A stretch of 64,000 nt of DNA from Geopsychrobacter electrodiphilus DSM 16401 (GTDB taxonomy: Bacteria > Desulfobacterota > Desulfuromonadia > Desulfuromonadales > Geopsychrobacteraceae): assembly GCF_000384395.1 (NCBI RefSeq), contig NZ_ARWE01000001.1, positions 930,001-994,000 of the forward strand, written 5' to 3'. Below are positions 37,665-56,074 of this stretch, piece after piece (position 1 is the stretch's first letter; every line of letters begins with the position of its first letter). The notes under the pieces are model-generated. The model searched no databases. It was not told the DNA's origin and saw only the letters and a program-made list of their open reading frames with translations. The translations under genes and the position numbers were made by a program.

Positions 37665-37697
37665 ATGTTCCAGCTCAAAGATAGGTGTTGGTTATGA
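37665..37697 (+). CDS. Ten-codon leader ORF overlapping the cytochrome start
   Basis: ATG at 37665 with GGAG seven bases upstream encodes MFQLKDRCWL, and its stop TGA overlaps the cytochrome ATG (ATGA). The cytochrome itself has only a weak AGGT site, so translation may be coupled through this leader. It is too short for homology; coding status is inferred from spacing only. Confidence 0.3.
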   Translation: MFQLKDRCWL

Positions 37698-39658
37698 TTG
37701 TTTTTATCAGGGGTCTGTTGGTCCTGGCTCTGTTAGTCGGCACTGCGGCTAATGTGCTCGCGACCGAAAGCTGTGTGACAGCGAATTGCCATGCGATTCT
37801 TGGCAAGGCCAAGTTTGTGCACGGTCCGGTTGCCGCGCAGGAATGCACGGTATGTCATGAAGAGACCGGTAAAAAACACCCCGGCAGCAAGGGTTCGTTC
37901 AAATTTCCTGAAAAGGGTGCGGCGCTCTGCTACCTTTGTCACGATAGCAAGACGGAAGGCTTTGCCTCGGTCCACCCGGCTCTCGAAGATGGTTGTGTCG
38001 GTTGCCACTCTCCGCATCAGTCCAACTATAAGCTCTTTCTTTACAAAGAAGGAGCCGACCTCTGTTACATGTGCCATGACAGTAAAACAGAAGGGAAGTC
38101 TTCGGTCCATCCAGCCCTCCAGGATGGCTGCATCTCATGCCATTCTCCGCATGCAGGGCCCGCGGCCAAGATGCTGCCGGCCGAGGGCGCAAAGCTCTGC
38201 GTGACTTGTCATGATGATCCTCGGGCAGGGAAGAAGGTCCTCCACGCCCCGGTGGCTGAGGGTAAGTGTACCAGTTGCCATAACCCGCACGCGGGAGACG
38301 CACCCAACATGCTGCCGGCTGCCGGGAAGGCGCTCTGCTTTACCTGCCATGATGACTTTACGGTAGGGATGACCTCGATACACCCGGCCCTGGAGGATGG
38401 CTGTACCTCCTGTCATGATCCGCATGGTAGCAATAATCGCAAGATGCTGGTGGAGACCGGCAGTAAGCTTTGTTATCGGTGCCATGATCAGAAGGCCGGG
38501 AATAAAGGAATGTTCGGCCACCCTCCGGTGGTCGAGGGGGACTGTCTTGCCTGTCATAATCCTCATGCCAGCAAGCAGAAATCTTTGCTGGTCGAAGCGA
38601 TTCCGGCGCTCTGTTATCAGTGTCATGAAAGTAAAACGGAAGGAAAATCGCACGTTCATTCACCGGTCGCAGCTGGTGATTGTACTGATTGCCACAACCC
38701 CCACGAAGGCAAAGCCAAGGGGATGCTTCCGGCTGTTGGGCAAAAGCTCTGTTACCAGTGCCACGACAACAAAGCCGACAAGAAGGTGGTGCATGGTCCT
38801 GTTGCGGCCGGGGAATGTGAAAGTTGTCATGATGTCCATGCTTCGGATGCCAAATTTCAGTTAGCCGCTGAGGGCAACCAGCTCTGTTTTATGTGTCATG
38901 ACGATAAGGAGGCCCTGGCGAAGATGGAGAATGTCCATCCGGCAGTGAAAGTTGGCTGCATTTCTTGTCATAATCCGCATAGCGGGCCACAAAAGTTCAT
39001 GCTGCCCGAAAAGGGGGATGCGCTCTGTCTGCAGTGTCACGAGGATATTGGAGAAAAAGCCAAAAATTCCCCGGTCAAGCATGCCGCGCTTGAAGAAGGC
39101 TGTGAAACCTGTCATGACCCGCACGGCAACGGCAATTTACGGATGCTCCAGGGTGATCCGAAGGTATTTTGTGTGAGTTGTCATGATGACATGGGAGAGA
39201 AAATTGCTGCGGCCTCGTCCCAGCATAAACCTGTTGCGGAAGGTACCTGCTGGGCTTGTCATGATCCGCATGGCTCCAAGAATCGGGTGCTGCTGCGCCA
39301 ATATTATCCTGAAGAGCTGTATGTCCCTTTTTCAGAAGAGAACTACGCGCTCTGCTTTCAATGTCATGATAGCCGTGCATTTATTTATCCCCGCACCAGT
39401 GAACTGACCAATTTTCGTAATGGCGACAAAAACCTGCATTTTGTCCATGTCAACAAGTCAACCAAGGGCAGGGCCTGCAAGGCCTGTCATGGGGTGCATG
39501 GCGCGGACCAGGACAAGCTGATTCTCAGTAAAATTACTGGCTTTGGCAAATGGGAAATTCCGATTAAATACACCCCGCAAAAATTCGGCGGCACCTGTAC
39601 GGTCGGTTGCCATAAGCCCAAAACCTACAATCGTTCTCGAGCTGTGCAGAATGATTGA
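37694..39658 (+). CDS. 25-heme secreted c-type cytochrome (doubled CXXCH family)
   Basis: 654 residues from the ATG at 37694, with a signal peptide (cleavage after about NVLA). I count 23 CXXCH motifs, plus a CX4CH (CVTANCH) right after the signal and a CX3CH (CTVGCH) near the C-terminus: 25 possible hemes. The protein is built of about 12 units of 45-50 residues with the pattern HPALxDGCxxCHxPH then LCYxCHD, as in doubled-CXXCH (PF09699-like) cytochromes. It has no lipobox. It is probably periplasmic or extracellular and moves electrons with its cluster neighbours. The NHL lipoprotein gene follows after 24 bases. Confidence 0.93.
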   Translation: MIVFIRGLLVLALLVGTAANVLATESCVTANCHAILGKAKFVHGPVAAQECTVCHEETGKKHPGSKGSFKFPEKGAALCYLCHDSKTEGFASVHPALEDGCVGCHSPHQSNYKLFLYKEGADLCYMCHDSKTEGKSSVHPALQDGCISCHSPHAGPAAKMLPAEGAKLCVTCHDDPRAGKKVLHAPVAEGKCTSCHNPHAGDAPNMLPAAGKALCFTCHDDFTVGMTSIHPALEDGCTSCHDPHGSNNRKMLVETGSKLCYRCHDQKAGNKGMFGHPPVVEGDCLACHNPHASKQKSLLVEAIPALCYQCHESKTEGKSHVHSPVAAGDCTDCHNPHEGKAKGMLPAVGQKLCYQCHDNKADKKVVHGPVAAGECESCHDVHASDAKFQLAAEGNQLCFMCHDDKEALAKMENVHPAVKVGCISCHNPHSGPQKFMLPEKGDALCLQCHEDIGEKAKNSPVKHAALEEGCETCHDPHGNGNLRMLQGDPKVFCVSCHDDMGEKIAAASSQHKPVAEGTCWACHDPHGSKNRVLLRQYYPEELYVPFSEENYALCFQCHDSRAFIYPRTSELTNFRNGDKNLHFVHVNKSTKGRACKACHGVHGADQDKLILSKITGFGKWEIPIKYTPQKFGGTCTVGCHKPKTYNRSRAVQND

Positions 39659-39682
39659 AAGTTATAGGCAGGGGAGAGATTC

Positions 39683-40774
39683 ATGCCATATCTGAAGAGA
39701 TTTTATATCTTCCTGAGCGTTCTGGTGCTTTCAGGTTGTGCGATCCAGGGCGGACCGAAACCACGCTATTTCTGGCCGATCGGTGGACTTGAACCTAAAA
39801 TAGAATATGTCGACTTCTACGAATCGGACCGTGATGTCAAACATCCGGAGAGCGCGCTCTCTCAAGCAGTGCTCGGGACGGAGTTGGGAAAGCCGCTCTT
39901 CACCTCACCTCATGGTATCGGCAGTCGCGGCGATGAGGTCTTTGCCGTAACCGACCCCGGCGTCGGAAGGGTATTCGTGCTCGACCTGCCGAAAGGGGAG
40001 TTTCGCAAACTGAAAAACCCTGCAGGAGAAGATTTTGTATTTCCCATGCCGATGGCGGTGACTTATCGGCCTAATGGCGGCGGCTACGTCAGTGACACCA
40101 AACTCGGAGCGATCTACCGCTTTACCCCCAATGAGGTTGTTGTTCAGAAAATTGGTGAGGGCGCCGGTCTCAATCGACCCAATGGTCTGGCATATGACCC
40201 CCGTCAAAAGCTACTCTACGTAGCAGACACCTTAAATCACCAAATTGCCGTCTTTGCCGAAGACGGTACCCTCCTGCGGCGGATTGGCAAGCGTGGGAGT
40301 GGCCAGGTTGAATTTAATTTTCCGCTTGATATCGCCATTGCGCCGGATGGTGATCTGGTGGTACTCGACTCATTGAATGCACGCGTACAGGTGCTGCATC
40401 CTGATGGACGTTTTGTCCGGATGTTTGGCGAGCGGGGTACCGCCGCCGGTTCCTTTAAATTACCCAAGGGGATCGCAGTCGACGGGTTTGGGCATGTTTA
40501 TGTCAGTGACGGGCAGGCGCATCGTTTTGTTATTTTTGACCTGAAGGGCGATTATTTGATGAGTGTCGGAAGCCAGGCTGTTGTGGTCAATGGTGAAATA
40601 CACCCGGGAGGACTTGACTTGCCCAAGGGGATCGCCGCCGATCCCGATGGCAAGATATACATTGTTGATAGCCTCAACCGCATGGTGCATCGCTATCAAT
40701 TCGTCAGTGATGCTTACCTCAGGCAGCATCCGATTCTTAAAGGGGAGCAGTATGTCCCCGAAAAATTGCGTTAG
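39683..40774 (+). CDS. NHL-repeat (beta-propeller) lipoprotein
   Basis: 363 residues with lipobox LSGC at the end of the signal. Six-bladed NHL propeller: repeats such as LNRPNGLAYDPRQKLLYVAD, FPLDIAIAPDGDLVVLDS, LPKGIAVDGFGHVYVSD and LPKGIAADPDGKIYIVDS are visible. NHL proteins serve as scaffolds; relatives beside secreted cytochromes are known in Geobacter (from memory). GGGGAG precedes the ATG, and it is co-transcribed with the 25-heme gene. Confidence 0.93.
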   Translation: MPYLKRFYIFLSVLVLSGCAIQGGPKPRYFWPIGGLEPKIEYVDFYESDRDVKHPESALSQAVLGTELGKPLFTSPHGIGSRGDEVFAVTDPGVGRVFVLDLPKGEFRKLKNPAGEDFVFPMPMAVTYRPNGGGYVSDTKLGAIYRFTPNEVVVQKIGEGAGLNRPNGLAYDPRQKLLYVADTLNHQIAVFAEDGTLLRRIGKRGSGQVEFNFPLDIAIAPDGDLVVLDSLNARVQVLHPDGRFVRMFGERGTAAGSFKLPKGIAVDGFGHVYVSDGQAHRFVIFDLKGDYLMSVGSQAVVVNGEIHPGGLDLPKGIAADPDGKIYIVDSLNRMVHRYQFVSDAYLRQHPILKGEQYVPEKLR

Positions 40775-40930
40775 GGCGGTCAGCCTTAACTCAGTCCGGG
40801 CGACAAACGTTTGAAAAGAGAATGTTTCTTTTTGGCAAGGCTCTCTGACCGCATTGCCGCCTGGGGCAGAGATCTCTGATTCATTTTGACGTTGTTAAGG
40901 CTAAGACCAATATCTCAGGAGCTATTTCAT

Positions 40931-41902
40931 ATGGTTAAAAGATTGTTCATCGTTCCCCTCCTTTTATTGATGCTGGTCTCTTCGTCTTATGCCCTGGATA
41001 TCGTCTACCCGGGGGATGGTACTTATGTGATCCACTCTGATTTTCTTATTATTCAGGCGGGTCCGAATGTTGATGGCTTAACCCTTGATATTGCTGGGGA
41101 AAAGAGTGATCTTTTCGACATTTCAGGTGCCGAATATAAAGCCGCTTTTGGTGATTTTCTGATTGTTCAACCGAGCTGGGCGCCAGGTAAAAATACGGTC
41201 AAGGTTGAAGCCTACAAGGCCGGCAAGAAAGTCTCCGACAAAACAACAAGTTTCTTCTTTCAGAATAATCCGCTCGAGCCACCACCCCAGGGGTTTAAGC
41301 GTTTTGTGATGCACACCCCTGAGCAAGAGGCTTTTTGCGTGGGTTGCCACAATATGAACCCGACCCCTGATCAGCTTGAAATGGTTGGAGAGAAAAATCC
41401 CTGTGCCAGTTGTCATAAGCGCATGCTCAATCATAAGTATGTTCATGGTCCGGCCGGGGCCTGGCAGTGTGCCTACTGTCATGACAGCAAGAGTAGACCG
41501 GCCAAATATCAGCCAAGGTCGCTAAATGGCGATCTCTGTGCTGAATGCCATGAAGATATTATTGAAAAATTTAAGGCATCGAAACTCTTGCACGGGCCAG
41601 TGGCCGTTTCGATGTGTGGTATTTGTCACGATTCGCACGCATCTGACTATCCCGCACAAGTGGTGTTACCTGTCAATAAATTATGCCTTGGCTGCCACGA
41701 AGGGGTCGATAAGGGGCCTCATGTAATCACTGGTTTTACCGGGAAACAGCATCCACTTGAGGGGGTGCCCGATCCTAGTCGACCACAGCGCGATTTGGCC
41801 TGTTCCGGTTGCCACGATCCACATTCCGGGTCTGCACGGTATTATTTTCAAGGGGGTGTCACTTCCCGCATGATGCTCTGCCAGAGGTGTCATCAGAAAT
41901 AG
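40931..41902 (+). CDS. Octaheme c-type cytochrome with N-terminal beta-sandwich domain
   Basis: 323 residues from the ATG at 40931 (AGGAG nine bases upstream); the upstream in-frame extension is ignored. The signal peptide ends near SSYA. Residues about 22-115 form a beta-rich domain with no Cys (IVYPGDGTYVIHSDFLIIQA...), which looks like an Ig/Fn3-type fold. Eight CXXCH sites follow: CVGCH, CASCH, CAYCH, CAECH, CGICH, CLGCH, CSGCH, CQRCH. A periplasmic or surface partner for the barrel downstream is likely. Confidence 0.92.
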   Translation: MVKRLFIVPLLLLMLVSSSYALDIVYPGDGTYVIHSDFLIIQAGPNVDGLTLDIAGEKSDLFDISGAEYKAAFGDFLIVQPSWAPGKNTVKVEAYKAGKKVSDKTTSFFFQNNPLEPPPQGFKRFVMHTPEQEAFCVGCHNMNPTPDQLEMVGEKNPCASCHKRMLNHKYVHGPAGAWQCAYCHDSKSRPAKYQPRSLNGDLCAECHEDIIEKFKASKLLHGPVAVSMCGICHDSHASDYPAQVVLPVNKLCLGCHEGVDKGPHVITGFTGKQHPLEGVPDPSRPQRDLACSGCHDPHSGSARYYFQGGVTSRMMLCQRCHQK

Positions 41903-44723: not shown

Positions 44724-45788
44724 TCATTCAGGGTATTTACTATAGTCAACGCCAGCCATGTGGCCAAAGCCATAGAGATTGATTTTGCTGGGTCCGTATT
44801 GATTGCTGACGATAATTACATACTCAATTTTGAATCCAGGTGCCGCAAAGCGCTGCAGAAATGGAGCCGCTTCATAGCTGATGCTCACGCTGGACGGCAG
44901 CATCAGATCTTGTGGTTCAACGCCACCCTTGGCAAGAGCCATGTAAAGTTTGCCCTGAGGATTAAAAAGTTGCAGGTTTTCAAAGGCGGCGTCGAGGACG
45001 TAAATACGTCCATCATGATCGATAGCCATCCCTTTGGGCCGTGAAAAGGTGCCGCGGGTATCACCAAGTTGGCCGAATTCAGAGAGTTTTTGTCCCTCCG
45101 GTGAAAACTTGATTAACTTGAAGGTCAGCATATTGAGTACGGCGATATTTCCGTCAGGTGTTATTGCGACAGAGTCGGGCCAGGCAAGACCCGATTCTTT
45201 GTCGAAGGTTTTGACTACTGCGCCGCTTTTTTTATCAATAATATGCAGCAGGTTCTTGCTGACTTCGACCACGTAAAGGTAGTTGTCGTCAACCGCGATA
45301 TCGTTCGGAAGCATACCTTCAGGTTGTTTATATTCCTTAAGGGGCTTGTTGTCTGGTCCGATCGCGAGGATCTGTTTTTTCCCAATATCGGCGACGTATT
45401 TGATCCCGCTCTTGTCAATCGCAATGCCCATGGGTTTGACAATGGACGGGTTGGCATACTCGAGCAGACTGGCTTTTTCGGTCTGCATGTTGAAACGCAC
45501 CAGACCAGCGTAACCGATATCGGCTATATAGAAAGAGTCGCCATAAAATGCCGCGTCGCGTGCCCGCATCAGGGCCAGCCCTTTGTCGCCCACCTGTTCG
45601 GAGAGCATGCGTGAGAACCCGCCTTGCTTCAGGTCGTATTCGCTGCTGAAAGAGGTCAGAAACTGAATACGCGGGGGCGCCGGTTTGGCCGGATAGAAGA
45701 CCTTCGGCAGCTGCGGAGTTGCACAGCCGGTTAATAAAAATAGGAGGCCGGTGATGAGCAGCAGAGGGAATTTTGCAAACTTAGTCAT
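44724..45788 (-). CDS. Second NHL-repeat lipoprotein
   Basis: 354 residues with lipobox LTGC. Propeller repeats are visible as PMGIAIDKSGIKYVADIGKK, LPNDIAVDDNYLYVVEVSKN, WPDSVAITPDGNIAVLN and RPKGMAIDHDGRIYVLDA. It is a paralogue in architecture, not a close copy, of the gene at 39683. It lies downstream of the tetraheme cytochrome, on the same strand but after a terminator, so it may be read through or have its own promoter. Confidence 0.92.
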   Translation of the reverse strand: MTKFAKFPLLLITGLLFLLTGCATPQLPKVFYPAKPAPPRIQFLTSFSSEYDLKQGGFSRMLSEQVGDKGLALMRARDAAFYGDSFYIADIGYAGLVRFNMQTEKASLLEYANPSIVKPMGIAIDKSGIKYVADIGKKQILAIGPDNKPLKEYKQPEGMLPNDIAVDDNYLYVVEVSKNLLHIIDKKSGAVVKTFDKESGLAWPDSVAITPDGNIAVLNMLTFKLIKFSPEGQKLSEFGQLGDTRGTFSRPKGMAIDHDGRIYVLDAAFENLQLFNPQGKLYMALAKGGVEPQDLMLPSSVSISYEAAPFLQRFAAPGFKIEYVIIVSNQYGPSKINLYGFGHMAGVDYSKYPE

Positions 45789-45933: not shown

Positions 45934-46545
45934 TTACTTGGCGTGGCAGGTTAGACAGAGGGCCGAACCAGCGTTGTCGACGCGCAACAAGGCAGAGGCC
46001 GTTGCCGGGCCATTGTTGTGAACGTCGTGGCAGGAGGCGCACTCCATCTGGCCAGCGAAAAGCAGGTCTGAAACTGCTGTGGTCGTACCTGGGTCGTTCA
46101 GACCGCCATCAGCGCTAGCCAGGGCTGAGTCATAGAGGAATCCGACCGGGTGGTCGTCACCCAGGTTGGTGCCGAGGTTGGCGGTCGTTCCAGGTACTGC
46201 AACAGATATGGTGCTGGCCCCGGCGTTAACGCCGAAGCTGTCAACGGCAACAGTGTTGTCGTGGCAGGAGAGACAGAGCTTGCTGATGCCCGATGGCTGC
46301 GCCATGGTCGCATTCAGGGTGGCGCTGCTGTAGAGGGTGTACGAAGCGGTGGTGGTCGTGTGGTCCCACAGCGGTGCGTTGGTAACGGTGGTGTCAGCGT
46401 TGTGCGGGGTGTGGCAATAAACGCAGATCTCGGTGGTGACGGTTGGCAGCATACCGCTGAAGTCGTGGGCTGAGCCGGTGATGACGGCGAAGGCCGGGCT
46501 GGCCATCAGGATCGCAACAATTGCGCTTAACAGAACTTTTTTCAT
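45934..46545 (-). CDS. Small Thr-rich tetraheme c-type cytochrome, possible filament subunit
   Basis: 203 residues with a signal peptide (cleavage after SPAFA). Four heme sites: CVYCH, CLSCH, CASCH, CLTCH; the last is followed only by AK. Likely axial His residues are in ITGSAHDFS, HTPHNAD, DDHPVGF and HDVHNN. Long Thr/Ser-rich stretches lie between hemes (DHTTTTASYTLYSSATLNAT, DPGTTTAVSD). Size, heme number and the C-terminal CxxCHAK recall the Geobacter nanowire cytochromes OmcE/OmcS, but this comparison is from memory. AGGAGG precedes the ATG, and a sigma-54 promoter and leader hairpin lie upstream. Confidence 0.9.
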   Translation of the reverse strand: MKKVLLSAIVAILMASPAFAVITGSAHDFSGMLPTVTTEICVYCHTPHNADTTVTNAPLWDHTTTTASYTLYSSATLNATMAQPSGISKLCLSCHDNTVAVDSFGVNAGASTISVAVPGTTANLGTNLGDDHPVGFLYDSALASADGGLNDPGTTTAVSDLLFAGQMECASCHDVHNNGPATASALLRVDNAGSALCLTCHAK

Positions 46546-46566
46546 TTTACTACCTCCTGGAATTTT

Positions 46567-46583
46567 CCCGATTCTCTATCGGG
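46567..46583 (-). promoter_or_regulatory. Leader hairpin before the tetraheme cytochrome ribosome site
   Basis: CCCGAT-AGAGA-ATCGGG on the minus strand, 6-bp perfect stem, about ten bases upstream of AGGAGG. It could stabilise the mRNA or tune translation. Confidence 0.4.
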
Positions 46584-46686
46584 ACAGTGACTACAGCTTC
46601 GCCGGGATACATAGGTCATCACGGCAGGATTTAATTCGAGACCCCGAAGTGGGCGCCGATTCTAAGTAAGTTGATATCATGGATTA

Positions 46687-46701
46687 GCAACCACTATGCC
46701 A
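46687..46701 (-). promoter_or_regulatory. Sigma-54 (RpoN) promoter of the tetraheme cytochrome
   Basis: On the minus strand TGGCATAGTGGTTGC, followed by T, matches TGGCAC-N5-TTGCW with exact -24/-12 spacing and one change. Transcription would start near 46675, giving a leader of about 130 bases. Confidence 0.72.
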
Positions 46702-47044
46702 ATTTCATTTTGGGGTACAATGCGGCTGTCTGGTGGCCTCTTTGCTGATCTTGGGGCCTGTATTACGGGATGCATGCGGAAGGCACTGGGCCCTTTTGGC
46801 GAAAACACCCGGTCATATAGCGAGCATTTTACGGGGTGTCACTGAGGCCAAAACCTGGGGCCAGATATCCCCGCTTGATGTTGACCCCAAGGCAAGCTGA
46901 ATTTATGCTGGCTGCGAATATGGCCGTAGGTTGATTGCTCCTTCAGCGGCCTGACCGGTGTTTGATAATTCTTAAGGTTTCTGCTTGAATCCTTCCGGGC
47001 GTAGACCCTGCTGCAAAGATTGAATCCGCTGGAGAAGCTTGTTT

Positions 47045-48958
47045 ATGTCTTATTTAAAAACCTGGGGAAGTGGACTGCTTCTGGGACTGGCTTGTCTTGC
47101 TGTTTACGGGCAGACCCTTGATATCCCCTGGTATCTTGATGACCTCCCTGGAATCGTCGAGAACCCACTTGTCAAGAGCGTGTCTGCCAGCCTTGCACAA
47201 GTCTTTCAACCCCGTGGTTTGTCAACGCTGAGCTTTTCCCTTAACCACTATTTTGGTCTGTTCGAGCCTGCGGGTTATCACCTTGTCAATGTTCTGTTGC
47301 ATCTTCTGGTTTCCTGGCTGGTTTTTTTGCTCCTCGCAAGAGTCTGTAATTTCAAGCGCTGGGTTTCACTTTGCGGAGCTTTGTTGTTTCTAGTTCATCC
47401 GGTGCAGACCCAGGCCGTAAATTATGTGGTACAGCGGAGCACTCTGCTGGCTGCTTTTTTCGTTCTGTTGAGTATTCTCAGCTTCTTTGCCGCAGAGCAG
47501 ACCCTGTCGCCGGGGAGCGGAGCAACCAGCAAGCGGCGATACTGGTTTTTGTACCTGCTAGCATTGCTCAGCGGAGCCTGCGCCGTCCTGACCAAGCAGA
47601 ATACTGCGACCTTGCCACTGCTGCTGTTTCTTCTGGGGTGCTATCGTCAAACGCATTCCTCGCGTTGGCTTGCCCTACGGATTGCGCCATTTTTCGTAGC
47701 TCCTGTCATGGTTTTAGTTTACATGGTGCTGCTTCCGGTGTTGTCGGGGGAAGGCCTGGCGCGAGTCGCTTCGACCCATCTGCTGGCTAACCTGGAAGGG
47801 ACGTCACCGCTGCATTATTTTGCAACCGAGCTCTCGGTCCTGCCACTCTATATCAAGTTAATTCTGTATCCGGTCAATTTGAGGCTCGATTACGCTTATC
47901 CGATTGTTACCCAGATTTTCACTGTTAAAAATATATCGTTGTTCGCCGGGCATGCTGCTGTGCTCGGGTCTGCCTTCTGGGCCCAAAAACGTCAGCGTGC
48001 ATTATCTTTTGCCATTCTCTGGTTTTATGCGGCGCTTCTGGTTGAATCTTCGTTTATCCCACTGGATCCTGTTTTTGAGCATCGTCTCTATCTGCCGATC
48101 ATCGGGCCGATCGTGCTTTTTTGTGCCCTTCTTGACTGGGGGCGGAGTAGGACAAGATGGATCGTGGCAGGGGCGGGTGCGTTGATACTGGTTTGCGGGG
48201 TGTTGAGTTGGAACCGCAATGAACTCTGGCGTCATCCGATTGCGTTTGCTGAACACGATGCCAGCAAGAGCCCCTATTCAGAAGGCCCCTGGGTTGCATT
48301 GTCCGGTCAGTATATGAAGGTTGGGCGGTTAGCCGAGGCGCGCAAGGCACTGGAACGTGCGCTTGAAATCAATCCGCAGTATCCCCTTATTTATGTCAAT
48401 CTGTCCTCCATCAGTCTGCGTCAGGGCAATCCAGTCTCAGCACAAAATGAAGCTCTTGCTGGATTGAGGCATAATCCCGGCAATGAAAAACTGCAGAGGA
48501 ATCTGGCTATTGCCTTTCTTCAGAGCGGTGAGCTGTCACGTGGCGTCGCCCTGCTTGACGGTCTAGCTCGCCGTCACCCCGAGGATTACAGTCTGCGCGT
48601 GTTGATAGGTCAGGCTTATATCGACCAGAAGCAATGGGGGCAGGCTGAAAAATGGTTAAAAAATGCAGTTGACATTGGGACCGACGGTGACCCTCTGCCC
48701 TACTATCTGCTGGGGGTTATTTCTTACCAACAGAAAAACTTGAAAGCGGCTGCTGATTATCTGCGGCGCGCCTTGCAGTTAAAGGGGCAGGATGTCGCAA
48801 TGCTGAAAGGACTGGGGCTGGTCTTGCTGGAATCCGGAGATTTTGCCGGGGCGCGCGAACAGGTGAAACAACTGGAGGGCCTGGACAAAAGAGCGGCAGA
48901 GTCATTGCGGACTGTAATCCAATCCGTAAGGACCCCTTCTGTCGGGGCGAAACCTTAA
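47045..48958 (+). CDS. TMTC/PMT-like membrane GT-C glycosyltransferase with TPR tail (1)
   Basis: 637 residues. About ten transmembrane helices (1-390) form a GT-C fold: an acidic first loop WYLDDLPGIVENP (the DD is the usual catalytic/metal pair), HPVQTQAVNYVVQRST, LDYAYPIVTQ, and SSFIPLDPVFEHRLYLP. TPR repeats occupy about 420-630. This layout matches the TMTC/DUF1736 O-mannosyltransferase-like family, which transfers sugar from a polyprenyl-phosphate donor to proteins on the outer face of the membrane. The acceptor is unknown. It faces a paralogue tail to tail and is divergent from the tetraheme cytochrome. Confidence 0.85.
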   Translation: MSYLKTWGSGLLLGLACLAVYGQTLDIPWYLDDLPGIVENPLVKSVSASLAQVFQPRGLSTLSFSLNHYFGLFEPAGYHLVNVLLHLLVSWLVFLLLARVCNFKRWVSLCGALLFLVHPVQTQAVNYVVQRSTLLAAFFVLLSILSFFAAEQTLSPGSGATSKRRYWFLYLLALLSGACAVLTKQNTATLPLLLFLLGCYRQTHSSRWLALRIAPFFVAPVMVLVYMVLLPVLSGEGLARVASTHLLANLEGTSPLHYFATELSVLPLYIKLILYPVNLRLDYAYPIVTQIFTVKNISLFAGHAAVLGSAFWAQKRQRALSFAILWFYAALLVESSFIPLDPVFEHRLYLPIIGPIVLFCALLDWGRSRTRWIVAGAGALILVCGVLSWNRNELWRHPIAFAEHDASKSPYSEGPWVALSGQYMKVGRLAEARKALERALEINPQYPLIYVNLSSISLRQGNPVSAQNEALAGLRHNPGNEKLQRNLAIAFLQSGELSRGVALLDGLARRHPEDYSLRVLIGQAYIDQKQWGQAEKWLKNAVDIGTDGDPLPYYLLGVISYQQKNLKAAADYLRRALQLKGQDVAMLKGLGLVLLESGDFAGAREQVKQLEGLDKRAAESLRTVIQSVRTPSVGAKP

Positions 48959-48971
48959 TTTCTGAAGCTAT

Positions 48972-50717
48972 TCAAAAAGAAGACATGGGTAATTTAGGTT
49001 TCAAGGTGTCGGCGAGGGCCTGGTCACGTTGGGACAGTTCTTTGAGCAGGCCTGAATAATCAATATTTTTCTGCAGTGCTGCGGATATCAGGAGATAGTA
49101 AAACAGGGCATGCATGTTTCCGGGCTGCAGTTCACGGGTGATGGTGAAATGCCTTAGGGCTTCAACTTGCCGGTTCTGAAGATAGAGGGCGATCCCCAGA
49201 TTGTAGTGTGCCTCGGGAGAGCGAGCATTCTTCTTTAAGGCCAGACGCAACAGAGCCTCCGCCTTGGGAAAATCATTGAACCGGCCATAACTGATGGCAA
49301 GATTCACCAGCATTTTATCATTGGCTTGCCCCAGCCCTCCTTTATCGATGCTGGCGGCGACCTGGTCGTAATTTTCTTTGGCGTTCTGGAGATCTCCCCG
49401 CTTGAACAGGGTGTCGGCTAACATGATCTGTGAACGATAGCTGCCATAGCCGTATGCGACATCATTTGTATAAAGTTGGAGCGGGTCAGCCCACATTGAG
49501 TTGCGGTTGTAGGACAGGAGTAAAAAGCCAAGCACCATTGCCAGGGCCGTGGCTGCCGCAAGCTGCGACTTGGTCGGAGATATTTTTGTCAGCAGGTCGA
49601 CTACCAGAATGGCGAAGCCGAAGAGCGGTACATAGAGTCGGTGTTCGAAGATCGGGTCGAGGGGAATGATTGACGACTCAACCGCAAGAGCCACCGTCAT
49701 CCACAGCAGGAAAAATAACAGAGTTGGCCATTTTCGGCGGATTGCGACGGCGATGCCGAACAGAGCGATGATGCCCGCCAGCGAGGCGAGAGTTGTCAGG
49801 TTAAAGATGGAATGAACCAGAGGGTATGCATAATCCAGGACCTGGTGAACTGGGATGCAGAGTAGTCGCAGGTAAAGCCAGAACACCGACAATTCGGTCG
49901 CAAAGTAGTTCAGCGGAGTCGCCGCGACTCCAGAGCGGAGCTGTTCGAAGTTGCCGATGGTTTGCCAGTTGCTCCCGGCCAGCATGGGTATGAGAACCAT
50001 GCTGGCTCCGATGAGAATCGGTACGATCAGCAGGGGCGAGACATAGGCGAGATTTTTCCTGAAGTTGAAGTTCTTGGGCCGTAAAAAAAAATAATCGAAG
50101 ATAAGAAACAAAAACGGAATGGTCGCAGCATTCTGTTTGGTGATCACTGCCAGAGCACCGCTGATGAGGTAGCCGGCATAAGGGAGCAAGTGCTGTTTCG
50201 CGAGAAAATTATCACCTTTTCCTTCAACTGCCTTTATGTAGCAGTAGAGCGCCATGAAGAGGAAGAGACCACTGAGGCAGGTGGATCTCTGGACGATGTA
50301 GGTGACTGCCTGAGTCTGAAGCGGGTGCAGGGCAAAGATGCCCGCCGCGACCCAGGGCCACAGAAGTGAGGCTCTGAAAACGCGAGTCAGGCAGAGGAAA
50401 ACAAACAGGGTCGTCAGGACATGGATTGTCAGGTTGACAAGGTGGAAAGGAAAGACGTCCATACCCCAGAAACGAATGTTGAGGGCTATGGAGAGCAGTG
50501 CTGGGCCGCGTTGTGTGAAAAAGGAGGCAATTGCCTGGGAAATGTCTTGTGCCTGAATGTTGTTAACGATGCCCGGATAATCATCGAAATACCAGGGTGC
50601 GTGTAATGATGGAAGATAAGTGATGACGGTCAGGATTGTGAGCGCAACGCATGGGAGTACAAAACAAATGAGACGGCTTGGGGCTGTGGGTTCCTGCGCG
50701 TTATATTTTTTAAGCAT
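48972..50717 (-). CDS. TMTC/PMT-like membrane GT-C glycosyltransferase with TPR tail (2)
   Basis: 581 residues, clearly paralogous to the plus-strand neighbour: WYFDDYPGIVNN, HPLQTQAVTYIVQRSTC, VLDYAYPLVHS and SSIIPLDPIFEHRLYVP recur in the same order. The TPR part (about 420-570) is shorter. It starts 14 bases after the GtrA gene and ends the GT2-GT4-Gfo-FkbM-GtrA operon, so it is the likely terminal transferase of that pathway. Confidence 0.86.
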   Translation of the reverse strand: MLKKYNAQEPTAPSRLICFVLPCVALTILTVITYLPSLHAPWYFDDYPGIVNNIQAQDISQAIASFFTQRGPALLSIALNIRFWGMDVFPFHLVNLTIHVLTTLFVFLCLTRVFRASLLWPWVAAGIFALHPLQTQAVTYIVQRSTCLSGLFLFMALYCYIKAVEGKGDNFLAKQHLLPYAGYLISGALAVITKQNAATIPFLFLIFDYFFLRPKNFNFRKNLAYVSPLLIVPILIGASMVLIPMLAGSNWQTIGNFEQLRSGVAATPLNYFATELSVFWLYLRLLCIPVHQVLDYAYPLVHSIFNLTTLASLAGIIALFGIAVAIRRKWPTLLFFLLWMTVALAVESSIIPLDPIFEHRLYVPLFGFAILVVDLLTKISPTKSQLAAATALAMVLGFLLLSYNRNSMWADPLQLYTNDVAYGYGSYRSQIMLADTLFKRGDLQNAKENYDQVAASIDKGGLGQANDKMLVNLAISYGRFNDFPKAEALLRLALKKNARSPEAHYNLGIALYLQNRQVEALRHFTITRELQPGNMHALFYYLLISAALQKNIDYSGLLKELSQRDQALADTLKPKLPMSSF

Positions 50718-50731
50718 AGTGATATTTCAGT

Positions 50732-51139
50732 TCAATCGATATTCTGAAAGGCATGGGTACGAAAAGCAAAATATTTTAAACCAAAGAAACTCACAACTGT
50801 GACAAAAACAATATTGATGGCATAGGAGACATAATAACCAAAGCCGTAAATATCTATTAAAATGATTAGACCAGACCATGACAATAACAACTGCAGGACG
50901 TAGACACAGAGGTGCCGAGAAAATTCTTTTCCCATGGGGGATTTGCTTTTAAAGGTAAAGTGCTTGTTTACAAAATAACTATTCACAACCCCGAACGACC
51001 ACCCAATCCCGGAAGATAACAGATAGTGAAAACCTAGATAGGTCAGGGAACAATAGGCCGTAATATTGATAAGAAAGTTAAGGACTCCGGAAAATAGAAA
51101 GAATATAATCTGGTGGCCAAGTTTGGTCCTGGATTTCAT
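50732..51139 (-). CDS. GtrA family polyprenyl-phosphate-sugar flippase
   Basis: 135 residues with four transmembrane helices and GtrA signatures (FFLFSGVLNFLINITAYCSL, SFGVVNSYFVNKHFTF). GtrA proteins move polyprenyl-phosphate-linked sugars across the inner membrane. Its ATG overlaps the FkbM stop (ATGA), and the GT-C gene follows 14 bases later. Confidence 0.9.
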   Translation of the reverse strand: MKSRTKLGHQIIFFLFSGVLNFLINITAYCSLTYLGFHYLLSSGIGWSFGVVNSYFVNKHFTFKSKSPMGKEFSRHLCVYVLQLLLSWSGLIILIDIYGFGYYVSYAINIVFVTVVSFFGLKYFAFRTHAFQNID

Positions 51140-51867
51140 GGAGTTTGAGTATCCAGAAAGAGGGTATTCGAAAAAGTCTGAAAGAGGGGAGCGTACCCAC
51201 GCTGGAGCATCAATTTTTCAAAAAGTTCATCTCTGATATATTCTCCGCGGGTAAGAATCCCGGTCTCTATGCAAAGGATTGATGGCCGCCACCTGTCGAA
51301 ATCCCAGGATTCCAGTACCTCAAAATCCATCCCCTCAATATCAATCGAGACGAAGTCTGGAGCCTGCCGAGGGAAATATTCCGCCAGAAGATCATTGATT
51401 CCAACAATCTTTACTTTTTGAATCGCCACCTCTGAACTCATCCCCTGCGAAAGGAGATGTTCTTGCCATTTTGGGTTTAAGGTCGAGAGCCCCTCAATAT
51501 CCATCACGCTGAGGTCCATATCTTCTCCCCCTACCGCGGCAACGCCAACATTTATGACCTTGTCACGTTTTCTCGCCCGGCGAAGTTTCTTGCACATCTC
51601 GGAATTTGCATCGACTAGAACGCCTGAGGACCCGTTTCGGGAAAGGAGGTGCGTATTCGAATGGAGTTTCGGGTGGTTTGCCCCAATATCCAGATAGGTA
51701 ATTACAGGCTTTCCCATGGTTAGAAAATATTCAAATACGCTCAGGTCTTCACCAAACTGAGAGCCAGATACGCGTCCTAACAGATAATCAAAAAGTTTAT
51801 TTCTGTAAGCCGCGCGATTTTGCTTCGGCATGGATCGGTACCTTCTTAGTAGAGCTTTTAATTTCAC
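51136..51867 (-). CDS. FkbM family methyltransferase
   Basis: 243 residues. The SAM-binding start VITYLDIGANHPKLHSN and VDANSEMCKKLR, and the later PDFVSIDIEGMDFEVLESWD, are FkbM signatures. Such enzymes often O-methylate glycans. Four-base overlaps join it to both neighbours, so it is translated as part of the glycan operon. Confidence 0.92.
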   Translation of the reverse strand: MKLKALLRRYRSMPKQNRAAYRNKLFDYLLGRVSGSQFGEDLSVFEYFLTMGKPVITYLDIGANHPKLHSNTHLLSRNGSSGVLVDANSEMCKKLRRARKRDKVINVGVAAVGGEDMDLSVMDIEGLSTLNPKWQEHLLSQGMSSEVAIQKVKIVGINDLLAEYFPRQAPDFVSIDIEGMDFEVLESWDFDRWRPSILCIETGILTRGEYIRDELFEKLMLQRGYAPLFQTFSNTLFLDTQTP

Positions 51868-52943
51868 GGGAGACCTCTTTTAGCGTTTCTGGCGTCAGAT
51901 ATTTTTTCCACAACTTGGCACATGGCGGTTACGGTATCGAGACCACGTTTTCCGTCGATGTGAGGCGCTGATTTATTGCTTAAGACTGAGTCAATAAAAC
52001 TCTGGAGAACAATATCGACGCCGTAATGAAGTTGACCGGTAACCAAGCGGATGCCACTGCTTAAAAATCCTTTCCAGTGTTGAATGGTCGCCGTGCCGGA
52101 TGTGCGTAAGATATTGAAGGCCAAATGTTGTTGATCGTTTGGCAGTACGATTAAGATATCCCTGAAAAAATCATAAATCGCCAAACGTTTATCACCAACC
52201 ACCGTGAACAACCATTCACAGACCGGTGATTGAAAATTAATCGCAAGATGGGTTGGGATACCCCCTGCGCTCATTTCGACGCTCATGAGTTGTGGCGTTT
52301 TATCGCTGACATCGTCGTTGAAATGACCATAGGCATTCAAAATTTGAAGGGAGCCACCAAGCCGCTGAAGCAAGTAGAAGAAGTGGGATGCCTCGTCGAA
52401 GAATAAACCAAGAGGGAGATCTTTGTACCATGATGGCAATCGGCGGTTGCGACTGGTCAGTTGCGATTGCTGGAAAGAGACAATTTCCCCCAACTGCTTC
52501 GATTCAACCAGTTCAATCAGGCGCTGCATTCCTCTGGAAAACTGGAAATTATGCATCACATTCAAGGTTAGATTTTTTTCGGCGGCCAGGGATATGAGCT
52601 CTTTCGCCTCCGCGGGGTTCATGGTCATGGGTTTTTCAACCAGGACATGTTTGCCCAGGTCAAGACAGGTCTTCGCAAGGAGGAAATGTGTCTGTGGCGG
52701 TGTGCCTATCAGGACGGCATCTGTTGTGGTGAACCAGGCGAGAGACTCAAGTTGATTGCGGATATCCTTCCCGTCATTTATGAGGTAGGTGTTTTTCAAG
52801 TTGTAGCGTGCTGCTGTTGATGTCAGATCCTGGTTTTTTTTCCCAATAAGGCCGATAGCTTCCACGTGTTTCGTCTTGCGAATGGCAGGCAGGTGCCTCA
52901 GGTTGGTGATGTTCCCGCCACCAAATAAGCAGAGTCGTATCAT
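51864..52943 (-). CDS. Gfo/Idh/MocA family sugar oxidoreductase
   Basis: 359 residues with an N-terminal Rossmann domain (LCLFGGGNI...) and the family EKP motif in HVLVEKPMT near 95, followed by the C-terminal alpha/beta domain. Members oxidise or reduce (nucleotide) sugars. Here it probably makes a modified sugar for the pathway. It overlaps both neighbours by four bases. Confidence 0.9.
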   Translation of the reverse strand: MIRLCLFGGGNITNLRHLPAIRKTKHVEAIGLIGKKNQDLTSTAARYNLKNTYLINDGKDIRNQLESLAWFTTTDAVLIGTPPQTHFLLAKTCLDLGKHVLVEKPMTMNPAEAKELISLAAEKNLTLNVMHNFQFSRGMQRLIELVESKQLGEIVSFQQSQLTSRNRRLPSWYKDLPLGLFFDEASHFFYLLQRLGGSLQILNAYGHFNDDVSDKTPQLMSVEMSAGGIPTHLAINFQSPVCEWLFTVVGDKRLAIYDFFRDILIVLPNDQQHLAFNILRTSGTATIQHWKGFLSSGIRLVTGQLHYGVDIVLQSFIDSVLSNKSAPHIDGKRGLDTVTAMCQVVEKISDARNAKRGLP

Positions 52944-54127
52944 GACTTGAGGTTCCTTTTATCGATTGAAGAAATCATCTGCACTTCGAGCTCTTCAGAG
53001 ATTCGATCCCAATTAAAGTATGCAATAACCCGCGCCCTTAATTTTTTGGCCAGTTTTTTCCTCAGGCTTTCGTTTTCCAACAGGGTGCAAAGCGTCTCTT
53101 GTAGTTGTAATTCACTTTCAATGATCATGCCGTGGTCCGAGTCGATCAGGATTTCTTTAACTCCTCCTGCAGGAGTCGCAACCACCGCACAATTCATGAG
53201 CCCAGCCTCAAGAATGCAAGTCGGTAGTCCTTCAGGGTAGCGCGAGGGATAGGCGAAAATGTCCGCGGCATCTAACAACGATAAAACCGTTGAGTGATCA
53301 ACCTCACCCAGAAAAACAATGCGGGGATGACCTGCTGCCAGGGTAATTAGCGAATTGGCTGCGGGGCCATCCCCGGCAATGAAGAGATAAAGGTCAGGAT
53401 AGCGGGTTTCAATCGCGTTAAAAGCATTAATGACTGTATCCGCGCCCTTGTCGGGGAGTAAGCGTGCCGCAAAGGCAACAATTTTGGTCTGCTCGCTTAG
53501 CCCGTATCCCGGAAGAAAATCTGTTTTTTTGGCGGGAGTATCTTTTAGGTCTACCCCATTGTGGATTGTCCCCGACGATTTTATCCCAAAATGGGACCAC
53601 CAGACTTCTGCCTGGTGGGAAACCGCGAAATAACTTTCTGAAAAAAGGTTGAGGGTTTTCGCCATGAGGTGTTCATATATGTGGAGGCAGCTATCAAGCC
53701 ATGATTTGCCCGTTCTTATATGTCCCGTGCCGTGGCCAATGACCAATGCCGGGTTGGATTTGGACCAGCCCATCGCCGCACCGATAAGGCTCAAGGGGAA
53801 CAGGTGGGTATGGATTACATAGACATCTGGTTTGGAATTCAATAAATCGCGGAGGCTTTTGCGGACAGCGCGCTGCCAGATTTTTGGTATAGGCATCCTA
53901 CCTGAAGCCAGGCTGACCGATGGAATCCTTACAATTCTGAGTCCGTAATATTTTTCAGTTAACGCCGTATTGTGAAGCTGTGTCGTCAGGATTGTTACTT
54001 TCCAGCCCCTCAGATTCAGGTGTTTGGAAATACTAAAGACATAGCGCTCGATTCCGCCAATATGTGGCGGGAAAAAAGCGGCGCACATGACGACATGTCT
54101 CTGTATTTTTTCTGGTTGAGCAAGCAT
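52940..54127 (-). CDS. Glycosyltransferase family 4
   Basis: 395 residues from the ATG at 54127 (AAGG about eight bases upstream). The N-terminal FFPPHIGGIERYVFSISKHL and the C-terminal donor domain with FAARLLPDKGADTVI, FAYPSRYPEGLPTCILEAGL and TPAGGVKEI are GT4 (GT-B fold) signatures. A much longer in-frame N-terminal extension overlaps the GT2 gene and looks non-coding. It is a cytoplasmic glycosyltransferase of the glycan operon. Confidence 0.93.
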   Translation of the reverse strand: MLAQPEKIQRHVVMCAAFFPPHIGGIERYVFSISKHLNLRGWKVTILTTQLHNTALTEKYYGLRIVRIPSVSLASGRMPIPKIWQRAVRKSLRDLLNSKPDVYVIHTHLFPLSLIGAAMGWSKSNPALVIGHGTGHIRTGKSWLDSCLHIYEHLMAKTLNLFSESYFAVSHQAEVWWSHFGIKSSGTIHNGVDLKDTPAKKTDFLPGYGLSEQTKIVAFAARLLPDKGADTVINAFNAIETRYPDLYLFIAGDGPAANSLITLAAGHPRIVFLGEVDHSTVLSLLDAADIFAYPSRYPEGLPTCILEAGLMNCAVVATPAGGVKEILIDSDHGMIIESELQLQETLCTLLENESLRKKLAKKLRARVIAYFNWDRISEELEVQMISSIDKRNLKS

Positions 54128-54201
54128 TGCAGGTGCCTTAAACAGCAATTGTTGGATATGGGGTGTCCGGGTTGATGCATCGTGTTCGAGCCGATGACTA
54201 T

Positions 54202-55167
54202 TCAGCCGCTGCTGCGGGGCAGGGGGATGCGCGGGACACTCTGGACATCGAAATTGAGAAAGGCCAGCAGCATCTGGGTGCCGAGGATGATCGGCAGGGC
54301 AGAGAGCATGACGGTTCCGCTTGATACTGTGATCCCACTGGTTGCACTTTCGACCCACTTGATGGCCCCGAAGATTGAGCCGAACATGATACCTGCGCAA
54401 CCCAGCAGGATTTCGAGAGAAGCGACGGTAAAATCGCGGAGGTAATAATTGTAGGCCAGTCGCTTGAGGAAGTTTCGGCTGTTTTTCAGTAGAAACTCAG
54501 GGATGGTTTTAAGGACTTTCAGATTACTCTTTTCTTCCCCGTATAGGGCACTCATCGGCAGATCCGTGACCACCGCCCTGATGGTGTTGAGGCGGAAGAG
54601 CATGTCCGACTCAAAAAAGAATCGTTTATCGATTTTATCAAGAGGTAAGTATCTAAGAACATCTGCGTGGATGGCAGTAAAGCCGTTGGTTGGATCAAAA
54701 ATATTCCAGTAGCCGCTTGCCAGTTTCGTGAGAAATGAAAGACAGGCATTACCAAAAATTCGAACCGCAGGCATTTGGGCCAGATCGTCAGGGTTATGAA
54801 AACGGTTTCCCTTAGAATAATCAGCCTGCCCATTCTGGATAGGTTTGATCAATGCCGGGATAAGTTTCGGATCCATTTGACCATCACCATCGAGTTTGAC
54901 GACTATATCGCAACCTTCCTCCAGGGCCTGTTTGTAGCCGGTGAGCATTGCTCCTCCCACGCCCAGGTTTTCCGTATGCCGCAGCACCTTAAGGCGGGAA
55001 TCGGTAACTCCCTGTTGTGCCTGCCCTCCGGAATTTTCAGGGCATGCGTCGTCAACGAGGTAAATCATATTGACCTCAGGTCCGATACTGGAGAGGACTG
55101 ATCGGACCTGCCCCCCGACCTTGTAGCAGGGGATGATTACGGCGATTCGCCACTTCTGCTGGCTCAT
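54202..55167 (-). CDS. GtrB/DPM-like polyprenyl-phosphate glycosyltransferase (GT2)
   Basis: About 321 residues from the ATG at 55167. The GT2 domain starts WRIAVIIPCYKVGGQVRSVL and contains VKLDGDGQMDP (metal-binding Asp residues) and FDPTNGFTAI. Two C-terminal transmembrane helices follow (about 240-310). This is the GtrB/dolichyl-phosphate-mannose-synthase layout, which charges a polyprenyl phosphate with a sugar. It heads the minus-strand glycan operon. The upstream 72 in-frame codons run into the divergent promoter region and are not included. Confidence 0.88.
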   Translation of the reverse strand: MSQQKWRIAVIIPCYKVGGQVRSVLSSIGPEVNMIYLVDDACPENSGGQAQQGVTDSRLKVLRHTENLGVGGAMLTGYKQALEEGCDIVVKLDGDGQMDPKLIPALIKPIQNGQADYSKGNRFHNPDDLAQMPAVRIFGNACLSFLTKLASGYWNIFDPTNGFTAIHADVLRYLPLDKIDKRFFFESDMLFRLNTIRAVVTDLPMSALYGEEKSNLKVLKTIPEFLLKNSRNFLKRLAYNYYLRDFTVASLEILLGCAGIMFGSIFGAIKWVESATSGITVSSGTVMLSALPIILGTQMLLAFLNFDVQSVPRIPLPRSSG

Positions 55168-55348: not shown

Positions 55349-56074
55349 ATGGAAACTGTAGATATTTTGTATAGAGAAACCATTAAATTAATTCAGGCTA
55401 AAGACGGCTATCGATTTAGCCTCGACCCGGTGTTATTGGCTGATTTTATCACCGTGAATGGTGCAGCGCGTGCCCTTGATTTAGGTGCTGGTTGTGGAGT
55501 TCTGGCAGTGTTGCTTGCCCGAAGATCGATAGATTTGAAAGTTTTTGGTTGGGAACGGCAAGGACAAATGGTGACGCGGGCAATGGAGAGCGTCCGGTTG
55601 AGTGGGCTGGCAGAGCAGGTTTCGATTTGTGAGGCTGATCTGCGGTGTTTCCGCGAATTGGCTATTGCAGGAACATTTGATCTGGTTGTAACGAATCCAC
55701 CCTATCGAAAAATTAATTCCGGCCGGATTGCTCCTGTCGATGAGCGTGCGGCTGCTCGACATGAACTGGCGGGCGGGCTGGAGGATTTTCTTGCTGCTGC
55801 AAGTTGGTGTTTGAAGCATGGAGGTTGCTTTGGGATTGTCTTTCTTGCCGAGCGACTGAGTGAACTACTGGTGGGCATGACCGCTGTCGGCTTAGAGCCG
55901 AAGCGCTTGCGCATGGTACACTCACGCCGGGGAGAGCCTGGCAAGATAGTTCTCGTTGAGGGGCGTAAAAAGGGTGCTGTCGGATTGAAAGTGGAGCCAC
56001 CACTATTTATCTATAAGAGTTCAGGCGTTAACGAATATACCGAAGAAGTTAAACGAATTTATGAGAAAGAATAA
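55349..56074 (+). CDS. trmN6: tRNA1(Val) (adenine-N6)-methyltransferase-like protein
   Basis: 241-residue SAM methyltransferase of the TrmN6/YfiC group: IQAKDGYRFSLDPVLLADF, DLGAGCGVLAVLLA and the catalytic VVTNPPYRK are present. A TATAAT box ends nine bases before the ATG and there is no ribosome site, so the mRNA may be leaderless. It is transcribed divergently from the glycan operon. Confidence 0.88.
   Translation: METVDILYRETIKLIQAKDGYRFSLDPVLLADFITVNGAARALDLGAGCGVLAVLLARRSIDLKVFGWERQGQMVTRAMESVRLSGLAEQVSICEADLRCFRELAIAGTFDLVVTNPPYRKINSGRIAPVDERAAARHELAGGLEDFLAAASWCLKHGGCFGIVFLAERLSELLVGMTAVGLEPKRLRMVHSRRGEPGKIVLVEGRKKGAVGLKVEPPLFIYKSSGVNEYTEEVKRIYEKE

Follow-up and report, generated by a model that had tools for sequence, protein, structure and literature searches.

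Gene content of the locus

Geopsychrobacter electrodiphilus DSM 16401 carries, next to a cluster of multiheme cytochrome genes, a seven-gene module predicted to attach sugars by way of polyprenyl phosphate. The window, by which we mean the whole stretch of DNA analysed, comprises 64,000 nucleotides (NZ_ARWE01000001.1, positions 930,001-994,000) and sits at 0.93-0.99 Mb of the genome. On one side of the module is the cytochrome cluster, on the other trmN-dciA-ffh (Table 1). The gene at 55349..56074 we take to be trmN. A minus-strand run encodes GT2, GT4, Gfo/Idh/MocA, FkbM and GtrA proteins and GTC_minus, a predicted GT-C protein with tetratricopeptide repeats (TPRs); the plus strand encodes a second GT-C/TPR protein, GTC_plus.

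An earlier note on this DNA had named the first five of these families, and Pfam identifies all five. The four-base overlaps that it described along the run are present at three of the five junctions (GT4/Gfo, Gfo/FkbM and FkbM/GtrA), whereas gaps of 74 bp and 14 bp separate GT2 from GT4 and GtrA from the GT-C gene. As the note had said, the second GT-C/TPR gene faces the run, GTC_plus and GTC_minus being convergent with 13 bp between them, and the cytochrome gene lies about 500 bp away, divergent from GTC_plus.

A Pfam scan found no Wzx, Wzy, WaaL or ATP-binding cassette (ABC) exporter among the seven module genes, and the only Wzy_C places found in this genome are at 1.33 and 2.09 Mb. Searched at E<=1e-12, the other 106 genomes of the order yielded no match to the FkbM gene. 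Rfam gave no match in the window at gathering score and none in 46450-47150 at E<=5, and a scan for promoters and terminators stayed at chance level.

Table 1. Genes of the module and of its flanks (window positions)
Feature	Position	Strand	Evidence
GT2, similar to GtrB and dolichol-phosphate-mannose (DPM) synthase, predicted polyprenyl-phosphate sugar synthase	54202..55167	-	PF00535 3.4e-17; PDB 5mlz DPM synthase 7.7e-15
GT4 glycosyltransferase, predicted cytosolic second sugar or nucleotide-sugar step	52940..54127	-	PF00534 4.1e-28; ATG at 54127
Gfo/Idh/MocA oxidoreductase, predicted sugar tailoring	51864..52943	-	PF01408 5.7e-20; 4-bp overlap with GT4
FkbM-family methyltransferase, predicted sugar O-methylation	51136..51867	-	PF05050 1e-14
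GtrA-type flippase, predicted for polyprenyl-phosphate sugars	50732..51139	-	PF04138 8.9e-19; GC 0.377
GTC_minus, TMTC-like GT-C/TPR protein, 581 aa	48972..50717	-	TPR matches; D45-D46, R144, K194, Y362 in 34/34 aligned members
GTC_plus, TMTC-like GT-C/TPR protein, 637 aa from this ATG	47045..48958	+	TPR matches; nearest tree row (53% identity) adjoins trmN in G096
OmcE-family tetraheme cytochrome, 203 aa, candidate acceptor	45934..46545	-	PDB 7tfs_A 2.6e-23, 9yuq_N 9.3e-29; 4 CXXCH
NHL-repeat lipoprotein, partner in OmcE cluster	44724..45788	-	PF01436
Large porin-like protein (OMP742), 742 aa	42227..44455	+	No Pfam match; barrel inferred from position
Remaining cytochrome cluster: 23-heme cytochrome, NHL lipoprotein, 8-heme cytochrome	37685..41902	+
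trmN-type methyltransferase (presumed name), backbone gene at far end of junction	55349..56074	+

The GT-C/TPR proteins resemble TMTC transferases

Both window GT-C proteins have a polytopic N-terminal membrane region followed by TPRs, which is the architecture of the TMTC proteins. A crude count gives 6 and 10 hydrophobic segments for the two proteins, and TPR matches fall at residues 412-625 (GTC_plus) and 430-534 (GTC_minus). Pfam detects TPR or TPR-like families only, NCBIfam matches are all far under their cut-offs and confined to the TPR half, and PDB searches with the protein or its profile return TPR or other repeat proteins, or designs containing them (for the profile, among 60 of 547 matches). 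Neither DUF1736 nor any other Pfam family is found in the membrane half of either protein, and no such match is among the 25 of 70 families listed for 24 aligned members. An AlphaFold2 model of GTC_minus with the two window sequences as input reached a predicted local distance difference test score of 51 and its membrane half was unusable. A scan of viral contigs for GT-C genes gave three loci, which were left unused.

The membrane half was compared with motifs M1-M7 of the TMTC proteins, as given in the excerpt of PMC7801869 consulted. Invariant in all 34 aligned members are D45-D46, R144, K194 and Y362 (GTC_minus numbering), which map on M1, the arginine of M3, the lysine of M4 and the tyrosine of M7. 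M1, a DD pair in the first periplasmic loop, is thereby present throughout as D45-D46. M6 (PxxP) is complete in both window proteins, and its prolines occur in 26/34 and 17/34 members. Three motifs match in part in both: M4, KE(T/Q)xxT, reads K-Q-N..T; M5, DW, reads D-Y, with the aspartate in 17/34 members; and M7, ERxxY, reads E-H-R-L-Y, the arginine being one position off. By this pattern, rather than by a Pfam match or a structure model, the membrane half would be GT-C, and the proteins may work like TMTC/PMT-type transferases; we do not file them as TMTC members.

DPM synthase is the type of enzyme that makes the TMTC donor, and the window likewise encodes a DPM-synthase-like enzyme alongside. 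TMTC1-4 are O-mannosyltransferases of the GT-C/PMT clan that share with the window proteins the multi-transmembrane N-terminus and TPRs, together with DD, a conserved K, PxxP and E...Y, the window having DY for DW (PMC7801869, excerpt). The window proteins differ in lacking a DUF1736 match, in SHKSYRP cut to a single Arg, in RST for RxD and in the shifted R of ERxxY, and the system as a whole is bacterial and includes GtrA and tailoring genes.

The second likeness is to the three-component systems, in which a GtrB-like GT2, GtrA and a membrane transferase are likewise encoded in one operon. In the window the transferase is TPR-bearing and doubled, GT4, Gfo/Idh and FkbM genes are added, and the acceptor is no known O-antigen. 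The three-component GtrA/GtrB/GT-C sets of phage gtr loci modify the O-antigen of lipopolysaccharide (LPS). The logic proposed in the earlier note, of a polyprenyl-phosphate sugar, a GtrA flippase and a GT-C transferase, is supported by homology for the GT2, through DPM synthase, and clearly for GtrA; its GT-C half comes from the motifs.

The neighbouring cytochrome is an OmcE homologue

The tetraheme neighbour aligns over its whole length with OmcE (7tfs_A, residues 7-203; 9yuq_N, residues 1-203; E-values in Table 1), and this full-length homology and its four CXXCH motifs, both shared with the OmcE filament of Geobacter sulfurreducens (PDB 7TFS), place it in the OmcE family. OmcE filaments are described as extensively glycosylated, and the glycans on OmcE and OmcS filaments are proposed to insulate the wire (PMC9473688, excerpt). 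The window protein is a putative filament cytochrome and a candidate for glycosylation. The glycosyl enzymes for OmcE are not named in the part of PMC9473688 consulted, and among the matches listed for the open-licence literature (titles and abstract openings) no enzyme assigned to the OmcE or OmcS glycans was found.

In the window the OmcE homologue is clustered with NHL lipoproteins, 8-heme and 23-heme cytochromes and the 742-aa porin-like protein. Similar partners recur at the named OmcE-like loci, of which there are at least 80, mostly in other phyla, the OmcE gene being callable in 76. Among the matches listed, an NHL-type gene lies within 7 kb in 72 of these 76 loci, another multiheme gene in 66/76 and, in 59/76, a gene belonging to a single large non-heme family with a median length of 664 aa. 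Pfam verified the NHL representative; the representative of the 664-aa family has no Pfam match and is porin-like by position only.

Clusters of OmcE and NHL genes are widespread (L111-L190), occurring, by record title, in Bacteroidetes, Ignavibacteria, Calditrichota, Gammaproteobacteria, Acidobacteriota, Verrucomicrobia and others. Behind a further OmcE-like tetraheme gene of the window genome (L104:10059-18179, about 0.535-0.543 Mb) comes a giant open frame, 2706 aa long and with 57 CXXCH; a relative has a similar arrangement, its giant frame being 2794 aa with 58 CXXCH (L089:7604-15988).

The porin-trmN junction across the order

Places of the porin, trmN, GT-C and Wzy_C genes were located in 107 genomes of the order, here given G numbers. 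The coordinate test used cut-offs of E<=1e-30 for GT-C (at most 12 candidates scored per genome), 1e-20 for the porin and 1e-25 for trmN, and trmN was recovered in all but 16 of the 107. Genes outside the window were called with a home-made codon-score program and their transmembrane segments estimated by a crude hydrophobicity count, which makes both starts and transmembrane numbers approximate there.

GT-C genes are linked to trmN in genomes with this porin. A GT-C gene lies within 20 kb of trmN in 12/29 genomes with the porin, the window included, and in 0/62 without it (Fisher p 1.6e-7); among genomes with any GT-C the proportions are 12/17 and 0/18 (p 7.4e-6). The 12 genomes span four family codes (f1, f5, f6 and f12). 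In G047 and G065 the GT-C gene is on the far side of trmN.

There are 21 genomes, that of the window among them, in which one contig carries both porin and trmN. The junction between them holds GT-C/TPR genes in six (G000, G041, G070, G071, G072 and G110, with gaps of 10.9-40 kb), Wzy_C in three (G003, G006 and G007) and neither in 12. Ten of the last group have gaps of 72-631 bp; the junction of G013 (L097) is 2 kb, with no genes but those for the OmcE homologue and its NHL partner; that of G065 is 28.8 kb and is counted here although its content could not be read. An OmcE homologue is found near the porin in 20 of the 21, G027 having a fragment only, at a contig end, and G113 its nearest 35 kb away.

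Further genomes show parts of the same arrangement. Across contig breaks, a GT-C gene is directly upstream of trmN in G040, G076, G077 and G096, and a GT2-like gene immediately follows the porin in G038 and G040. A Wzy_C gene adjoins the OmcE homologue in G005 and lies between trmN and the porin in G031. In G041, G070 and G110 the glycosylation genes are co-stranded with the cytochrome cluster, in the order cytochromes, NHL, OmcE, porin, GT2-like, further membrane proteins, GT4-like, a multi-transmembrane protein of 314-338 aa and GT-C; the GT4 label in G110 is from position, with no match behind it.

The transferase at the junction is of several kinds

In four genomes of the same genus (G003, G005, G006 and G007) a Wzy_C protein of 715-727 aa (E 5.3e-18 to 2.8e-20) occupies the slot beside the OmcE homologue, its gene being 268-329 bp upstream in the same orientation. 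TPR matches are clear in two of these proteins, weak in one and absent from one. Used as a query against nine genomes of the genus, one of these proteins matched the same four at E<=1e-20 and not the window genome; G031, of the same family, has a 711-aa relative (33%). Wzy_C is a Pfam family different from anything in the window GT-Cs, and a PglL/WaaL-type Wzy_C protein would use a lipid-linked oligosaccharide.

The GT-C genes at the junction are themselves diverse. In a FastTree phylogeny of 108 of 113 GT-C/TPR rows (five rows under 450 aa were excluded, and many forks are open), GTC_plus stands beside the trmN-adjacent G096 protein (53% identity), apart from most other junction GT-Cs, which share another, distant clade. 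With two distant GT-C clades and Wzy_C, a minimum of three transferase types have occupied the slot, and this supports selection for glycosyltransfer function there; an insertion hotspot could give the same picture.

At two loci (L100:11272-19964 and L101:12241-19879) two co-oriented genes stand ahead of the Wzy_C gene: one for an ABC transporter that resembles those of type I secretion, the other a very large open frame, which may encode a secreted protein and so another possible acceptor.

Other settings of the GT-C/TPR family

The contexts of 113 GT-C/TPR genes in 84 loci were read. They suggest that the family serves at several loci concerned with surface appendages or electron transfer, as well as in ordinary glycan operons. 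A gene with at least three CXXCH lies within 3 kb in 15/84 loci, the window being one, against 5/117 control genes (p 0.003), and within 600 bp in 6/84 against 2/117 (p 0.07). The control is thin, 30 random 20-kb regions giving three such genes in two regions, with ten more random picks (contigs under 290 kb) excluded because their contigs had originally been chosen for GT-C genes; simple adjacency to such genes was dropped as a main argument. With the window rows excluded, 7/14 GT-Cs of one clade (clade A) are near cytochromes against 7/92 other rows, the clade having been picked after the tree was seen.

Several individual loci were observed. Decaheme proteins face a GT-C gene at 255-548 bp in three families of the order (L082:6558-11436, L083:6966-11395 and L195); the MtrC/MtrF domain PF22113 is present in the L082 and L083 proteins, the two scanned, and a Wzx-like gene is close to the pair in all three. 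Pilin-linked GT-Cs are mostly in one clade. Downstream of a 75-aa PilA-like pilin the window genome has two further GT-C/TPR genes and, between them, ABC-transporter-like genes (L071:8552-15381, about 2.133-2.140 Mb), a position resembling the Geobacter xap cluster. Seven GT-C/TPR genes of 605-807 aa (called lengths) stand head-to-tail with GT2-like genes flanking in L076:6048-19305 (G047:C50), and at L095, L207, L234 and L237 a GT-C/TPR gene is between or beside purH, purD, purE or alr/thi genes.

Interpretation

We suggest that the locus encodes a periplasmic, TMTC-like, three-component O-glycosylation module, whose most likely acceptor would be the adjacent surface-cytochrome system and first of all the OmcE-family filament cytochrome; we rate the chances that this is right and that it is wrong about equally. 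What the analysis shows is the gene families, the OmcE homology, the return of oligosaccharyltransferase-class genes to this junction and the statistical linkage; donor chemistry, O-linkage, the direction of transfer and the acceptor are inferred. The donor would be made by the GT2, which by its family is expected to charge polyprenyl phosphate with a sugar that GT4, Gfo/Idh and FkbM could extend, oxidise or methylate. GtrA would flip the polyprenyl-phosphate sugar, so that transfer would take place in the periplasm, where the GT-C/TPR pair may place the sugar, O-linked, on an exported protein as TMTC proteins do. As for TMTC, the TPRs may contact the acceptor or a partner. Linkage supports the candidacy of the OmcE homologue, or else of a different surface protein from its cluster, as that acceptor.

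We know of no TPRs in the GT39 protein of Caldicellulosiruptor bescii, which offers a parallel for the genomic arrangement. It lies beside cellulase genes, its deletion abolishes protein glycosylation, and like the window system it is a single O-glycosyltransferase encoded near its secreted acceptors; it differs in belonging to GT39 and in having cellulases rather than cytochromes as acceptors (PMC6151902, excerpt).

More than mere adjacency ties the module to the cytochrome: the neighbour is an OmcE homologue, OmcE filaments are described as extensively glycosylated (PMC9473688, excerpt) and the junction in relatives holds GT-C/TPR genes, Wzy_C or neither. Several results weigh against it. 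Eleven genomes have a short porin-trmN gap and no module, and ten of them have an OmcE homologue no more than about 2 kb from the porin (in G027, one of the ten, it is the fragment at a contig end); in the eleventh, G113, the nearest is 35 kb away. The genomes are kin to one another, so the Fisher p-values, uncorrected for relatedness, are too small. In the flanks of the 80 named OmcE loci (up to 10 kb, with 1005 called genes and at least 5 kb on both sides in 47/76), no gene was found even at E<=10 with the GT-C profile or with one built from the four Wzy_C proteins, although both recovered their positive controls; a general link between GT-C and OmcE across these loci was accordingly rejected. 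The window genome has four OmcE-like places, and GT-C or Wzy_C is within 20 kb only at the one in the window. Two TMTC motifs are largely absent from the window proteins, M2 (SHKSYRP) retaining R70 alone (32/34) and M3 (RxD) keeping R144 in all 34 members with T in its third position in both window proteins and D in 14/34. No experiment tying a module gene to a cytochrome was found in the part of the open-licence literature consulted.

The earlier note had also called the cytochrome Thr-rich. The stretch measured does contain 13.5% Thr, but in this it does not differ from relatives without the module. Ser+Thr content is equal in 16 genomes with it and 8 without (p 0.98; among the 16 are G038 and G047, for which the module is less well supported; no sequence could be obtained for G055, G072 and G092, and G065, G074, G113 and G027 were excluded), and as a marker of glycosylation it was discarded and also speaks against the cytochrome link. 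The note's proposal of periplasmic protein O-glycosylation with the cytochrome as candidate acceptor is supported in part, by OmcE homology and junction linkage; Ser/Thr content and the 80 named loci speak against it. One outcome that the note had named as refuting, no co-occurrence with cytochrome genes, is contradicted by the 12/29 against 0/62 genomes, although no link was found at those 80 loci.

A different reading is that the module adds sugars to LPS, or serves to make or modify a polysaccharide outside the cell, in the manner of gtr or xap loci, the TPRs binding assembly partners rather than protein acceptors. The O-antigen modification by phage gtr sets is in its favour, as are the GT-C/TPR relatives of L072 and L073, which belong to glycan operons with no cytochrome in the stretch read. 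The GSU1498-1508 cluster lies beside the Geobacter pilin genes. A gene with a pilin-like N-terminal motif is within 3.5 kb of 20/84 GT-C/TPR loci, one of them in the window genome at 2.14 Mb (L071), against 0/118 control genes, a position resembling that of this "extracellular anchoring polysaccharide" cluster (PMC3495685, excerpt). The many relatives near pilin-like genes or in glycan operons also count against a cytochrome acceptor. However, Wzx, Wzy, WaaL and ABC exporters are missing from the seven genes by Pfam, and a role in LPS or polysaccharide predicts neither the linkage to the OmcE/porin cluster nor replacement by a different oligosaccharyltransferase (OTase) class in the same genus; we consider it rather unlikely. 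That the module glycosylates proteins generally, with the junction a mere convenient insertion site and the cytochrome no special acceptor, would fit junction GT-Cs from at least two distant clades plus Wzy_C, GT-C genes elsewhere between purH, purD and purE or near alr/thi genes, and an FkbM gene matched nowhere else in the 107 genomes, as for acquired cargo. Yet trmN alone does not attract GT-C genes, since none of the 62 porin-less genomes (nor of the 18 of them with GT-C) has one within 20 kb of trmN, and we regard this explanation as improbable.

Implications

Three elements are already known by themselves, protein O-glycosylation, TMTC-like enzymes and glycosylated OmcE; no locus joining the three was found among the matches listed for the open-licence literature (titles and abstract openings). 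With the cytochrome system as acceptor, the recurrence of OTase-class genes at the OmcE-cluster junction, the alternation with another OTase class and the small, deletable size of the module would supply named genes for the filament-glycan question, and the module is a candidate, open to testing, for the machinery behind the sugar coat of cytochrome filaments. If this reading is right, bacterial TMTC-like proteins would gain a function, and the surface chemistry of nanowires would be tied to gene gain and loss.

More tentatively, and with the balance leaning somewhat towards doubt, the porin-trmN junction may be a dedicated, exchangeable slot for filament-cytochrome glycosylation, in which lineages install TMTC-like GT-C sets of different clades or a PglL/WaaL-type enzyme, or leave it empty, with the result that the nanowire has a quickly evolving sugar coat around a conserved wire. 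If so, the insulation and stickiness of the nanowire and its exposure to phages or grazers would change quickly with the coat.

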